From Parvibaculum indicum (GTDB lineage: Bacteria; Pseudomonadota; Alphaproteobacteria; Parvibaculales; Parvibaculaceae): 46,358 nt of DNA. The notes below the pieces were generated by a model. The model was not told the DNA's origin, searched no databases, and saw nothing but the letters and a program-made list of their open reading frames with translations. This document shows, in pieces, positions 1,028 through 5,233 of the stretch. The DNA lies in NCBI RefSeq assembly GCF_011762095.1, contig NZ_JAASQO010000021.1:1-46358 (forward strand). The letters are read 5' to 3'. The translations under genes and the position numbers were made by a program. How positions within the stretch are numbered: position 1 is the stretch's first letter; every line of letters starts with the position of its first letter.

Positions 1028-2788
1028 TCAGATTTCCTGGGGATCGCCCGGCTCGGCGGCCTCGCATTCGCGCCCGCTGACACGCCAGCGCGCCACGATC
1101 TGTTCCAGCCCCTGGCGGTCGAGATTGGGCGCACTCCACGATTGCGAGAAAGCCGCGTTCACGTTGCGCGGCAGCGTGTCGGCCGCGAGATCGTGGAAGC
1201 GGATACGCATCGGCATGGCGACGCCCTGCCCGAGGATGATCGCTTCGCGGTCGCCGAGCAGCGGCAGGAAATCGAGAAGGTCGAGCGCGCCGTCATGCGT
1301 ATTGGCCCGCATCACCTGCTGGTCGCGCTCGGTGGAAAGCCGCATGGCGACCGCCGTGGAACATTGCGACAGGATGGTCGGGTCGAGTTCGGAGGGCCTC
1401 TGGCTGACCAGCGCGAGCGACAAGCCGTATTTGCGGCCTTCCTTGGCAATACGCGACAGCGCCTGGCGCGTCGGCATGAACTTGTCGCCGCCATGAGCCG
1501 GTGCGTATCGATGCGCCTCTTCGCAGACCAGAAGCATGGGAAGCCCTCCCTTGCTCCAGACCGCGAGATCGAAGGCGATACGCGAAATCACAGACACCAC
1601 GACATCGAGAATTTCCGGCGGCACGGTCGAAAGGTCGATGACGGTGATCGGCTTGCCATCGCTCGGTATACGGAAGAGTTTGCCAAGAACGTCGGCCATA
1701 TTGTCCTGAACGGTCAGGCTGCCGAACATGAAACTGTAGCGCTGGTCGCTGACCATCGTTTCGATGCGGCTTTTGAGCCGGCGGTAGGGCACCGTCGTGC
1801 GCGTGCGTTCGAGCTTGCCGAGCTGATCGTCGATATAGAACAGCACGTCGGACAGACGGAAAGGCGTCGGCGTTTCGACGGTGATGCCTCCCGTCTCGCC
1901 GACGCGGCGCGCAATGGCGGCGCGGCCCGACGAGGCGTCGTGGAAACGCCGCTTCGCATAGAGAACCGCGTCGCTCAGAATTTCCACTTCGGCGTCGTAA
2001 TGGCCGTCATGGCTGACCAGCGCCGCCGTCAGCTCCTGAAAGTTCAGGAGCCAGAACGGCAGGTTGAGATTGCGGGCATTGATGAGTTCGGCCTGGTCAC
2101 CGAAAGCGCTGGGATACTCGTTGTGAATATCGAGGACCACTACATGCGCATATTCGTGACCGGCAAGCACACGCTGCAGGATACTCGTCAGCGCGCACGA
2201 CTTGCCGCAGCCCGTCGTCCCGACAACGATGAAATGCTTGGCCAGAAGGTCGTCGAGCAGAAGTCTCGCAGGCACATTGGCATCCTGAAACAGGCTGCCG
2301 ACTTCCACCGTCGCCTTGCCCGGCTGGTTGTAGACGCGCGTCAGGTCGTGCCGGTCGGCGAGCAGAACGGGATCGCCAAGCGTTGGAAGACTGGACACAC
2401 CGCGTTGAAACCTGAGCCTTCCGTCCTTGCTGTCGACAACCACTTCGCCGGCCAGGTTGATCTCGACCAGACCCATATCGACCTGATCGTCCCCATCCGA
2501 AGGCGCGGGCGCGCTGACCGCCGAGACGATCCCGACGACCTGATGTTCGCGCGTCGGCACCTTGACCAGCTGACCGATTTCGATGCGCCGGCGAAAACCG
2601 CCTTTGTCGCCCGGCAGCTTTTCCATCACGGCCACGGCCTGCGCGCCCGACACCGAAACGATATGCGCGATCCGCACCGGCGGCGAGGCGGGCTTTCCCC
2701 GCCGCTCCGAACCGTCGCCGCCGGCTTTCATGCCAGAACCGTCAGAGGTGCCTGACGAGGTGCTGTAATGCCCTTTGTCACGCTTCAC
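1028..2788 (-). CDS. HerA-like (DUF87) hexameric ATPase
   Basis: A 586-residue cytoplasmic P-loop ATPase of the HerA/FtsK class. The N-terminal third is a beta-rich HerA-type barrel region (about 40-170). Walker A GTTGCGKS lies near residues 190-197 and Walker B LLVCEEAH near 419-426. A glutamine-bearing sensor segment LALVSQRPSELDPTIL follows. HerA proteins pump or translocate DNA and in archaea act with the nuclease NurA in end resection; no NurA-like gene is present here. The start is uncertain. The GTG at 2788 overlaps the stop of the upstream histidine kinase gene by 11 bases, suggesting translational coupling. An ATG at 2731 is the alternative, but it has no clear ribosome binding site. 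ATPase family assignment is firm; the biological role is unknown. Confidence 0.85.
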   Translation of the reverse strand: MKRDKGHYSTSSGTSDGSGMKAGGDGSERRGKPASPPVRIAHIVSVSGAQAVAVMEKLPGDKGGFRRRIEIGQLVKVPTREHQVVGIVSAVSAPAPSDGDDQVDMGLVEINLAGEVVVDSKDGRLRFQRGVSSLPTLGDPVLLADRHDLTRVYNQPGKATVEVGSLFQDANVPARLLLDDLLAKHFIVVGTTGCGKSCALTSILQRVLAGHEYAHVVVLDIHNEYPSAFGDQAELINARNLNLPFWLLNFQELTAALVSHDGHYDAEVEILSDAVLYAKRRFHDASSGRAAIARRVGETGGITVETPTPFRLSDVLFYIDDQLGKLERTRTTVPYRRLKSRIETMVSDQRYSFMFGSLTVQDNMADVLGKLFRIPSDGKPITVIDLSTVPPEILDVVVSVISRIAFDLAVWSKGGLPMLLVCEEAHRYAPAHGGDKFMPTRQALSRIAKEGRKYGLSLALVSQRPSELDPTILSQCSTAVAMRLSTERDQQVMRANTHDGALDLLDFLPLLGDREAIILGQGVAMPMRIRFHDLAADTLPRNVNAAFSQSWSAPNLDRQGLEQIVARWRVSGRECEAAEPGDPQEI

Positions 2789-3647
2789 CGCCTTTTTCAC
2801 CTTGGAACGCTGCCATATTGGTCGCAGGCAGCGTGAATACGACTGTGGTGCCCTGCCCGGGCTCGCTGGAAATATGGAATTCGCCGCCATGCAGCCGCGT
2901 CAGCGCCGCGGCGATCGGAAGTCCCAGGCCGGTGCCTTCCTGACTGCGGGAAAAAGCCGACTCGACCTGACCGAACGGCGTCATCGCCCTGGCGACCTGC
3001 GTCTCGTTCATGCCGATACCGCTGTCGGCGACGGCAAAGCTGACGCTGTTGTTCCGGTTGCCCGCCACCACCAGCACGATCCGGCCGCCCGCGGGCGTGA
3101 ACTTGTGGGCATTGGACAGGAGATTGATGAGGACCTGCTTCACCCGCCGCTCGTCGAGCATCAGCGGGGGCAGGTCCGGCGTTACCTTGACCTCGAGCGC
3201 CTGGCTCTTCTCGCCGATCCGCGGACGCACCATGGAGACGCAGGATTCCACGATCTCCGCCGGATCGTGCCGGCCGAGATCGAGTTTGAAATTCCCGCTC
3301 TCGATTTTCGAGATGTCGAGAATATCGCCGATAATGTTGAGAAGGTGCCGACCCGCGCCGGAAATATGGGTGGCATATTCGACCACCCGATCCTGCTGGG
3401 CGGCGGTGTCCTGCATGTGCTGGATGAATTCGGAAAAACCGATAATGGCATTGAGGGGCGTTCTGAGTTCATGGCTCATATTGGCCAGAAACTCCGATTT
3501 CGCGCGGCTGGCGAGGTCGGATTCGAGCTTGGCTGCGCGCAGCGCCTCCTCGGAGCGCCGCCGCGACATCAATTCGCCCATGTTTTCCGTGTACTGAGAG
3601 AGAAGCGAACTTTGCCGCCGCTTCCGCCCCATGCGCTCCGCATACAT
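2778..3647 (-). CDS. Soluble sensor histidine kinase
   Basis: A 289-residue kinase with no membrane segment and no recognisable PAS or GAF sensor. After a short N-terminal coil (about 1-50) comes the dimerisation/phospho-acceptor domain with the H-box SHELRTPLNAIIGFSE (His59). The catalytic HATPase domain follows: N-box NLLSNAHKFTP, G1 DSGIGM, F-box FGQVES, G2 GTGLGLPIAAALT. All residues needed for autophosphorylation appear intact. No response regulator lies beside it, so its partner is elsewhere; alphaproteobacterial kinases of the PleC/DivJ type resemble this catalytic half. It is the first gene of a pair with the HerA-like ATPase, overlapping it by about 11 bases. The missing sensor suggests the signal comes from a protein partner, possibly via the coil. 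Confidence 0.9.
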   Translation of the reverse strand: MYAERMGRKRRQSSLLSQYTENMGELMSRRRSEEALRAAKLESDLASRAKSEFLANMSHELRTPLNAIIGFSEFIQHMQDTAAQQDRVVEYATHISGAGRHLLNIIGDILDISKIESGNFKLDLGRHDPAEIVESCVSMVRPRIGEKSQALEVKVTPDLPPLMLDERRVKQVLINLLSNAHKFTPAGGRIVLVVAGNRNNSVSFAVADSGIGMNETQVARAMTPFGQVESAFSRSQEGTGLGLPIAAALTRLHGGEFHISSEPGQGTTVVFTLPATNMAAFQGEKGGEA

Positions 3648-3837
3648 GCGAAAGGCCCCCGAAAGGCTATCAACAGGTCGCCTTGACCTTAGGACGCGCT
3701 TCGTTTCGGGGAGGTAAACGGGTCGTTAGGAAAAACGAGAAGTTTAAGGCTAAATCACATACGGGGCCGCGCTGCGAGGCCGCCGGGGCATGGCTCGCAG
3801 GCGACGCCCGGTGCCTGCCCGATCCGGCCTGTCCGCC

Positions 3838-4335
3838 CTAATCCAGGGCGTTTTCGTTCTGCTCGCCGGTCCGGATCCGGATCACCCGCTCCAGCGGCGT
3901 GACGAAAATCTTGCCGTCGCCGATCTTGCCCGTATGGGTGACCTTCTCGATCTCGGCCAGCGCCTTGTCCACCATGCCGGAGGGCACGGCGACATCGATC
4001 CGCAGCTTGGGCACGTCGGTCACTTCATATTCACGCCCGCGATAGATTTCCGTCTGCCCCCGCTGGCGGCCGAAACCGGCCACCTGCGTCTTGGTGATCC
4101 CTTCGATCCCCAGCGCCACCAGCGCATCGCGCAGCTCATCATACTTATGGGGCCGGATAATCGCCGTGATCATGCGCATGGGAAATTCCTGGTCGTATTG
4201 AAGGCCATAATGGACGAGCCGCCGGATCGCCTCCGACCGGGAGGGCAGGTCGGACTGCGCCCGTCTCCATTGATCCACCAGATCGTTGAACTCCCTGGAG
4301 GCGACGAGCTGGATGCGCTGATCCAGTTTTTCCAT
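3838..4335 (-). CDS. P-II signal protein with N-terminal ribbon-helix-helix domain
   Basis: One uninterrupted frame encodes 165 residues. Residues 5-45 match a ribbon-helix-helix DNA-binding domain: a strand RIQLVAS, a helix around EFNDLVDQWRRAQ, and a second helix after the turn, SRSEAIRRLV. Residues 53-165 form a complete P-II protein. With an offset of 52, residues matching the GlnB ligand site are present: Gln39 (Q91), Tyr46 (Y98), the uridylylated Tyr51 (Y103), Lys58 (K110), GKIGDGK (136-142), Arg101 and Arg103 (R153, R155). P-II proteins sense 2-oxoglutarate and ATP/ADP and control nitrogen metabolism by protein contact; a DNA-binding arm is not part of the normal family. The ATG at 4335 has GGAG seven bases upstream. 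An internal ATG before MRMITAI, with AGGAA upstream, might also yield plain P-II. No amt or glnA gene is adjacent. Confidence 0.88.
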   Translation of the reverse strand: MEKLDQRIQLVASREFNDLVDQWRRAQSDLPSRSEAIRRLVHYGLQYDQEFPMRMITAIIRPHKYDELRDALVALGIEGITKTQVAGFGRQRGQTEIYRGREYEVTDVPKLRIDVAVPSGMVDKALAEIEKVTHTGKIGDGKIFVTPLERVIRIRTGEQNENALD

Positions 4336-4504
4336 GAAACCACTCCGGCGCGGGGCCGACTTCGTCAGAATCCGCCCGCCTGACTCGACTGTCACATGAT
4401 GAGGCCGGCCCGGCGTGAGTGACCTAACCCCCTGCTATTCTTGACTTTCTAGCATCCGACGGGGGCCCTGTCCAAACTTTGTGAAATCGCACCAAACGCT
4501 GATA

Positions 4505-4535
4505 TTGACAAACTTACACATCTTACCCATATAAT
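4505..4535 (+). promoter_or_regulatory. Consensus sigma-70 type promoter
   Basis: A perfect TTGACA (4505-4510) and a perfect TATAAT (4530-4535) are separated by 19 bases, slightly longer than the optimal 17. Transcription would begin near 4542. The leader is about 80 bases and opens with a small hairpin, CGGACC/GGTCCG (about 4543-4562). Full-consensus boxes are rare in this GC-rich window, so the downstream micro-gene is probably well expressed. Confidence 0.75.
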
Positions 4536-4624
4536 GCTTGCAACGGACCGGAAGGGAGGTCCGGAAAGGAACAGCAAAGGCCCGCGCCAACCGCATTGAG
4601 AGGCCGGCCGATTTGGAGGATGCA

Positions 4625-4813
4625 ATGATGGACGACGAACTGAACTATCGCGGCGCGCATCATCATGGCGAAGCGAAGAAGGGCCCGAAGGGCAAGCCGA
4701 CCGACATGCACTATCGCGGCACCGACTTCCGCTCCGACAAGCAGCAGCACGCCGAAAGCCCTAAGAAGCGCGACCATGAGGGCCTGCTCTATCGCGGCGT
4801 GCAGCAGCACTGA
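4625..4813 (+). CDS. Micro-protein with three Tyr-Arg-Gly repeats
   Basis: A 62-residue, very hydrophilic protein rich in His, Lys, Asp and Glu. It contains three spaced copies of an aromatic YRG element: LNYRGAHHH near the start, MHYRGTDFR in the middle and LLYRGVQQH at the end. The linkers are charged (GEAKKGPKGKP and SDKQQHAESPKKRDHE). There is no signal peptide or membrane segment. GGAGGA at 4615-4620 sets the start; either of two adjacent ATGs (4625 or 4628) is possible, the second having the better spacing. It stands alone between a strong promoter and a terminator-like hairpin. The YRG word recalls the small DUF4278 proteins, but I cannot show homology. Function unknown. Confidence 0.72.
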   Translation: MMDDELNYRGAHHHGEAKKGPKGKPTDMHYRGTDFRSDKQQHAESPKKRDHEGLLYRGVQQH

Positions 4814-4943
4814 CCTTTGGTATCGGACGTGTCCGGGGCGTTACCCGGACGTAACTTGCTCGGATGCCGCCGCCGGCGCAGCATCCCGGCCGCTTCCCCC
4901 AGGGAGCACGACCAACAATAAAAAGCCGGACCAGACTCGAAAG

Positions 4944-4983
4944 GCCACTCCATGCGCCGGCACGCGCGGGAGTGGCTTCTGTT
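4944..4983 (+). terminator. Probable terminator after the YRG micro-gene
   Basis: GCCACTCC (4944-4951) pairs with GGAGTGGC (4969-4976) and is followed by a T-rich TTCTGTTT. A second hairpin, GTCCGGG/CCCGGAC (4831-4850), lies nearer the stop codon but has no T-tract. Confidence 0.55.
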
Positions 4984-5023
4984 TGTCCGAAGCCGGAAAA
5001 GATGAAGCGATTTCAGGGAAAAG

Positions 5024-5099
5024 TGGTGCCGCTTGGGTGACTCGAACACCCGACCCCATCATTACGAATGATGTGCTCTACCAACTGAGCTAAAGCGGC
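5024..5099 (-). tRNA. tRNA-Thr (anticodon CGT)
   Basis: The reverse complement folds as a full cloverleaf. The acceptor stem is GCCGCTT/AAGCGGC; the D-arm contains AGTTGGTAGA; the anticodon stem CATCA/TGATG encloses the loop TTCGTAA with anticodon CGT. The T-arm is GGGTG-TTCGAGT-CACCC. The discriminator A and CCA are encoded. It reads threonine codon ACG. Confidence 0.96.
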
Positions 5100-5233
5100 C
5101 CGCATGGCAGGCGTTTCGAAAACGCCGCCGAAAGAGGCCCTCAAATAACGCGGCGCGCGCCCTTTGGCAATATCCCTGCGACAGGGAAACGCGCAAGCCG
5201 CGAAGATTTTCCCGCAAAGACGCGGACGCCACC

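Follow-up and report, generated by a model that had tools for sequence, protein, structure and literature searches.

The locus and its two genes

The window analysed here is the whole stretch of 46,358 nucleotides from Parvibaculum indicum (contig NZ_JAASQO010000021.1, positions 1 to 46,358 of the forward strand). Its minus strand carries a gene in which a ribbon-helix-helix (RHH) domain precedes a full-length P-II signalling protein in one reading frame, and divergently from it lies a gene for a small protein with three YRG motifs that scores as a member of the family DUF4278. Our comparative analysis revealed that the fusion gene and the YRG gene form a two-gene module, the features of which are located in the window as follows.

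4335..3838, minus strand: RHH-P-II fusion gene, a single 165-residue frame with homologues elsewhere
4186..4335, minus strand: RHH domain, residues 1-50 (presumed strand 5-13, helices 14-25 and 33-50)
3841..4179, minus strand: P-II domain, residues 53-165, with effector-binding residues and T-loop Tyr kept and T-loop Phe55 replaced by Asp
4479..4521, unstranded: putative operator, arms 4479-4486 and 4514-4521, 35 bp apart, two mismatches in one arm relative to the genus form
4505..4535, plus strand: putative YRG promoter, TTGACA 4505-4510 and TATAAT 4530-4535 at 19-nt spacing (or CATATA at 17), named by eye and from relatives
4625..4813, plus strand, divergent from the fusion: YRG/DUF4278 protein gene, likely start 4625 or 4628 after GGAGG, by eye

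Distribution and intactness of the fusion

The distribution of the fusion was followed in 98 related genomes, comprising 27 of the genus (that of the window included), 13 of other members of the family and 58 of other members of the class, and the fusion was present in 17, 0 and 1 of these, respectively. The genus count includes genome G005, where the fusion is split at a contig edge and its RHH half was located separately. A sample of the class yielded six fusions among 385 genomes, two of them in members of the genus and four in one distant family with genomes of about 1.4 Mb; within this distant family 14 of 18 genomes, and all six of the near-complete ones, carry the fusion. The genome of the window was the only one with a fusion among 398 genomes sampled from the phylum, and neither the class nor the phylum sample held a fusion outside the genus and the distant family. 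Fusions scored at least 275 bits, against 173 bits for the best ordinary P-II protein.

The reading of the gene as one intact frame, put forward in an earlier note on this DNA, is borne out by the homologues, which likewise keep a single frame. The joint between the RHH and P-II parts is aligned without a gap in both lineages, the genus and the distant family, between which the fusions are 58% identical. Since independent genomes have the same gapless fusion, an assembly or frameshift artefact was ruled out, and the observation of the fusion is real.

A tblastn search with the fusion matched 104 plasmid and 15 phage records, with a place covering at least 80% of the query in 14 and 3 of them, respectively. 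Two records were inspected and rejected as fusions: the match on a Bradyrhizobium plasmid is a separate 112-codon glnK, and the one in a human-gut record labelled as phage is a fusion of ammonium transporter and P-II without an RHH part. The latter record (MT835884.1, L278 1-1122) encodes an ammonium-transporter-like part and P-II in one frame; the record is unverified and may be bacterial DNA. With the N-terminus of the fusion alone as query, one plasmid record was matched, a hypothetical protein of Mesorhizobium.

The RHH part

The N-terminal residues were proposed in the earlier note to adopt an RHH fold, and the predicted structure agrees, the monomer showing an N-terminal strand and then two helices in RHH geometry. 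Sequence profiles likewise place the N-terminus in the RHH superfamily: hhalign gave 99.7%, and the profile of standalone RHH proteins was matched at E=3.9e-21; 13 of 14 standalone relatives in turn match RHH_1 at E ≤ 0.1 (best 1.2e-4). A Foldseek search with the predicted RHH domain returned no match at an E-value below 0.001.

The strand of RHH superfamily proteins reads the DNA bases. Residues 5-13 of the fusion (DQRIQLVAS), the presumed DNA-reading strand, are invariant across both lineages in alignment A2, which fits a shared DNA site, and the RHH part as a whole is conserved about as well as the P-II part, its strand better. The standalone RHH proteins of viral contigs (L192-L207) are homologous to the N-terminus of the fusion, at most 65% identical to it, and lack the P-II part, 15 of the 16 being frames of no more than 88 codons without it. 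One 240-residue viral-contig protein (L204, 238-945) combines the same RHH N-terminus with a different C-terminal part, so that this RHH family may possibly be joined to further domains. Among 80 canonical P-II loci, an open frame of at least 40 codons preceded the P-II start in 11, and none contained the RHH core motif sought, S-[E/D/A/K]-[A/S]-I-[R/E].

The P-II part

The full-length P-II domain of the fusion scores above the curated cut-off of PF00543. The B- and C-loop residues of P-II proteins belong to the effector site, and these, together with the T-loop residues and the GlnK-numbered Q39 and K58, are retained in the fusion; positions 91, 110, 135-142 and 153/155 are invariant in alignment A2, which covers both lineages, with the exception of 138. 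The 2-oxoglutarate and ATP residues and the T-loop tyrosine recognised in the earlier note are kept. According to an extract of PMC3198391, Q39 and K58 of GlnK position Mg-ATP and 2-oxoglutarate.

The T-loop of the fusions keeps the motif YRGxEY with Arg47 and with Tyr51 (Y103 in the window protein), the residue that is uridylylated in Proteobacteria. Phe55 of the T-loop is replaced by Glu or Asp in 35 of 35 fusion rows read (31 distinct genes, four having been fetched twice) and is Phe in all 27 canonical rows of alignment A3, which represent 27 of the 80 canonical loci; it is a reasonable guess that this substitution may reflect a changed partner of the T-loop. The fusion is an additional P-II protein of its genome, because a second P-II gene lies there between ammonium-transporter genes and a third beside a glutamine synthetase gene (neighbours named by eye). 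Its P-II part is 58% identical to the P-II protein beside the ammonium-transporter genes.

The partner gene

The YRG protein of the window has about 61 residues and three YRG motifs, the partner proteins being generally about 50-60 residues long, and scores 28.8 bits against PF14105 (DUF4278; cut-off 25.3) when scanned as the longer frame 4538-4813. Among the 98 relatives, DUF4278 was detected at E ≤ 0.01 in 17 genomes, exactly the 17 fusion-bearing ones of the genus and all above the cut-off, and in none of the remaining 81, among them the fusion-bearing G087. In the genus, the YRG gene adjoins the fusion at each of the 16 loci for which upstream sequence is available, and in G005 it lies on the contig of the RHH half. 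In 10 of the 14 fusion-bearing genomes of the distant family, a YRG gene begins no more than 700 bases upstream of the fusion and on its strand. The YRG copies of this family are weak in Pfam, where, of three class-sample matches, one was over the cut-off with neighbours in frame.

The architecture described in the earlier note is found again in two lineages; that note had missed the divergent YRG gene. The persistence of the pair, though the gene arrangement differs between the lineages, suggests a functional link between the fusion and the YRG protein.

Two genomes from a single genus of the small-genome family (L178 and L159) carry the YRG gene as a tandem duplicate; in L178, from the genome that also contains L151, the duplicated genes extend from about 530 to about 217 bases before the fusion. 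In three genomes of another alphaproteobacterial family (L180, L181 and L182, around 1486-1737) the YRG gene is next to a hemF-like gene, and no P-II or RHH gene was recognised within 1.5 kb on each side. An Rfam search of 3500-5200 in the window at E ≤ 1 found no glutamine riboswitch near the YRG gene, returning only a tRNA-Thr and, at the same position, a match below the threshold. This tRNA-Thr(CGT), close to the module, occupies 5024-5099 on the minus strand.

A conserved inverted repeat between the two genes

An inverted repeat, ATGTGTAA-N27-WTACACAT, recurs across the genus in the region between the fusion and the YRG gene. The 35-bp spacing of its arms is exact in 13 of the 16 genus loci read, the sequence of the spacer varies, and the repeat takes a degenerate form in the window, in its close relative L114 and in L120. 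A genome-wide search, with a free spacer of 20-34 and the reversed pattern as control, found the strict repeat in 14 of the 27 genus genomes, each match at the module locus only, as compared with none in the 10 module-less genomes and none for the reversed control. The copy in the window constitutes one site where 0.03 matches were expected. The first arm, ATGTGTAA, was absent from the other two P-II loci checked in the genome of the window.

As judged by eye, one arm of the repeat falls between TTGACA and the presumed -10 element of the YRG promoter and the other just before the presumed -35 element of the fusion gene; a sigma-70 consensus scan with spacers of 16-18 called no promoter. The earlier note had suggested that the fusion may be a transcription factor and had pointed to its own promoter (4336-4500) as the DNA to examine. 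The conserved inverted repeat supports the transcription-factor reading; the site at 4479-4521 lies at the far end of that region.

The half-site recurs in the distant family, where TGTGTAA stands 38-56 bases before the YRG gene in all nine readable loci (the tenth is cut by the contig end), as against 23 of 2396 overlapping background windows, and the full ATGTGTAA precedes six of the nine YRG genes and occurs in none of the 2396 windows. A separate block, TATTT(G/C)AAAG-N-T, which differs from the genus repeat, was observed before the fusion gene of the small-genome family in 17 of 17 rows (14 genomes); it is often followed by A(T/A)GTAAA(C/T)AA, for example in L150, L155, L149 and L130, and lies 68-126 bases before the fusion.

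A probable joint loss of the module, and the genes downstream

A tree of the HerA-type ATPase with 21 genus rows (15 with and 6 without the module) placed the module-less G018 inside the module clade on supported branches. Both module genes are absent from G018, which has a clean site with 238 bases between the two flanking genes, and this is most simply read as joint loss of the fusion and the YRG gene. The tree implies three changes overall, and the placement of G019 is unsure. The G018 locus (L244) keeps a tRNA-Thr(CGT) after the module is gone.

Downstream in the window, a gene for a histidine kinase core that lacks an evident sensor domain (2778-3647, minus strand) is followed by the HerA-type ATPase gene (1028-2890, minus strand), and the genus conserves this pair whether or not the module is there. 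Both were rejected as parts of the module, because they are retained in the six module-less genomes with HerA found; HerA was found in 22 of the 27 genus genomes.

A candidate one-component transcription factor

We consider it probable, at about 0.7, that the fusion is an effector-responsive one-component transcription factor controlling itself and the YRG gene. DNA binding, effector response and the sign of regulation are all three inferred. That a standalone RHH DNA-binding protein was joined to a GlnK-type P-II protein is shown by architecture, homology and conservation. Because the repeat is conserved and specific to the locus, the fusion would bind the paired TGTGTAA-type sites between its own gene and the divergent YRG gene, and thereby control both; the YRG gene would most likely be repressed, since the presumed -35 and -10 elements of its promoter flank one arm. 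The retained ligand residues suggest that ATP, ADP and 2-oxoglutarate on the P-II part would alter the DNA affinity of the fusion. As to geometry, the predicted P-II strands (53-60, 80-86, 109-118 and 143-148) have a ferredoxin-like topology, in which strand 1 runs parallel to strand 3 and starts on the T-loop side of P-II. Because strand 3 starts at the T-loop, the RHH domains would sit on the T-loop face and could be reached by effector-driven T-loop movement. The YRG protein would be the output, acting on nitrogen metabolism, as the association of DUF4278 with it in cyanobacteria suggests, and a P-II-type protein sensor may have taken over the role of a riboswitch for this DUF4278 gene, since no riboswitch was found near it.

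A number of results weigh against this reading. The RHH part does not reach the gathering cut-off of RHH_1 (PF01402; 20.5), scoring 13.2 bits in the whole protein and 15.5 bits with the N-terminus alone, and owing to this score the fusion is not filed under that Pfam family. The strict repeat is absent from 3 of the 17 module genomes (G000, G014 and G015), that of the window included, where no near-perfect repeat was found, the second arm being degenerate; moreover, 1 of 100 shuffles had as many matches as the window copy. In dinucleotide shuffles of the distant-family YRG upstream sequences, TGTGTAA appeared in 13% (355 of 2700), far above its 1% of genomic windows, and the full ATGTGTAA in 4.6%; the regions before the YRG genes of this family yielded no inverted second arm, TGTGTAA preceded the fusion gene itself in 1 of 14 cases and TGTGTGA in 5, and loci within one lineage are not independent of each other. 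For these reasons the half-site of the distant family is supporting, not decisive, evidence. The pair is not obligatory in that family either, as the other 4 of the 14 fusion-bearing genomes have a YRG remnant in one case and no nearby YRG gene in three, and in another family of the class a DUF4278 gene stands next to a hemF-like gene (by eye) with no fusion present, so that the small protein is not confined to the fusion as partner.

Among the alternative explanations, an RHH part that merely dimerises P-II trimers or binds a protein partner, with the YRG protein as binding partner and no action on DNA, is the least improbable, though still unlikely. It accords with the retention of the T-loop with Tyr51 and Arg47, as in P-II proteins that act by contact, with the adjacency of a small-protein gene in two lineages, and with the review PMC4285133, according to which P-II proteins work by direct interaction with a target protein in all known cases. 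An invariant RHH strand together with a locus-specific inverted repeat is, however, what a DNA-binding RHH regulator predicts and a pure protein partner does not. That the repeat belongs to another regulator, the fusion being either a conserved bystander or a nitrogen regulator of general scope that acts on targets elsewhere, appears to us distinctly less probable: the restriction of the repeat to module genomes and to the module locus, and the recurrence of the half-site in the YRG promoter of the other lineage, where the genes are ordered differently, speak against it, even if the three module genomes lacking the strict repeat would be accommodated and the absence of ATGTGTAA at the two other P-II loci would allow that other targets, if any, have different sites.

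The earlier note had also pointed to an internal ATG at residue 53 that could yield P-II alone; on such a reading the frame would give mainly P-II, and the RHH part would be vestigial. Met53 is invariant in the fusions of both lineages, so the codon is indeed conserved, but canonical P-II proteins also begin at the equivalent Met, and its conservation is for this reason no proof of internal initiation. AGGAA stands upstream of this ATG in the window, the rest of the genus having AAAGAG or GAAGAG, and the distant family is variable there, with no conserved ribosome-binding site before Met53. Given also an RHH part about as conserved as the P-II part, and a strand even more so, such a product is very improbable as the main one.

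YRG motifs as possible T-loop mimics

The YRG repeats may copy the tip of the P-II T-loop, which would make the YRG protein a P-II decoy and P-II itself the DNA-bound sensor of a self-contained nitrogen switch; we regard this as rather unlikely. The T-loop tip Y46-R47-G48-A-E-Y51 reads YRGAEY in 27 of 28 rows of alignment A3 and YRGREY in the fusion of the window, while the second YRG unit of 15 genus proteins reads YRGASY (7), YRGASH (4), YRGATY (1), YRGTRY (1), YRGAPY (1) and, in the window, YRGTDF. At the end of three distant-family copies stands YRGIKY or YRGAKY; the two tabulated from a further family combine YRGSSY with YRGTDY or YRGADY. Most first and third units have no aromatic residue at the end, the units of the window (YRGAHH, YRGTDF, YRGVQQ) are less T-loop-like, and a match of three residues could be due to chance. 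GlnK inserts Arg47 into the ammonium channel, as described in an extract of PMC3198391. If the likeness is genuine, the YRG protein would compete with canonical GlnK/GlnB T-loops for targets such as the ammonium channel or for uridylylation, and the cyanobacterial DUF4278 proteins, encoded near glutamine riboswitches, would be T-loop mimics as well.

Relation to known systems and significance

The fusion shares the fold, the effector residues and the T-loop motif YRGxEY with GlnK/GlnB proteins (E. coli GlnK, 1GNK/2GNK; Azospirillum GlnZ), whereas it adds the N-terminal RHH domain and the replacement of Phe55 by Glu or Asp and lies mostly beside a YRG gene rather than amtB or glnA. NikR, a nickel sensor with an ACT-like tetramer and half-sites closer together, follows the same logic of RHH plus ferredoxin-like sensor and gives the RHH family profile its best, though weak, sequence match in the PDB (E=0.12); in the fusion the sensor is a P-II domain and the repeat arms are 35 bp apart. 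In the PII-PipX-NtcA and PII-NtrB systems P-II controls transcription through a partner and has no DNA-binding part of its own; gene control by P-II-type sensing is common to these systems and the proposed switch, but in the fusion sensor and DNA-binder form one chain.

The partner of the window scores in the same family as the DUF4278 proteins of cyanobacteria, to which the N-terminal part of IF17/GifB also belongs; IF17/GifB is a glutamine synthetase inactivating factor with a C-terminal IF7-like part that binds the enzyme. Extracts of PMC6316151 relate that glutamine aptamers of cyanobacteria are mainly associated with DUF4278 genes, that the DUF4278 gene PMM1846 has an NtcA motif as well, and that DUF4278 covers only the N-terminal part of IF17/GifB; gifB is likewise given as a DUF4278 gene in an extract of PMC11288750, and that of PMC8092223 does not state that the PII-interacting protein PirA is a DUF4278 protein. 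Unlike the cyanobacterial genes, the gene of the window adjoins a P-II-type regulator, with no glutamine riboswitch found around it. Among the matches listed from open-licence literature, no description of a P-II/RHH fusion or of the T-loop-mimic idea was found, though this does not prove that none exists.

Few signalling proteins are as widespread as those of the P-II family, and the fusion with its mostly adjacent repeat-protein gene points to a gene switch that reads metabolites directly. The joining of a trimeric sensor to a dimeric DNA-binder in one chain raises a question of structural symmetry, the recurrent pairing with DUF4278 offers a genetic handle on this small-protein family, and the predicted operator makes the idea of DNA binding testable. 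With a DNA-binding domain in the same chain, a P-II protein would couple 2-oxoglutarate and ATP/ADP directly to a promoter.
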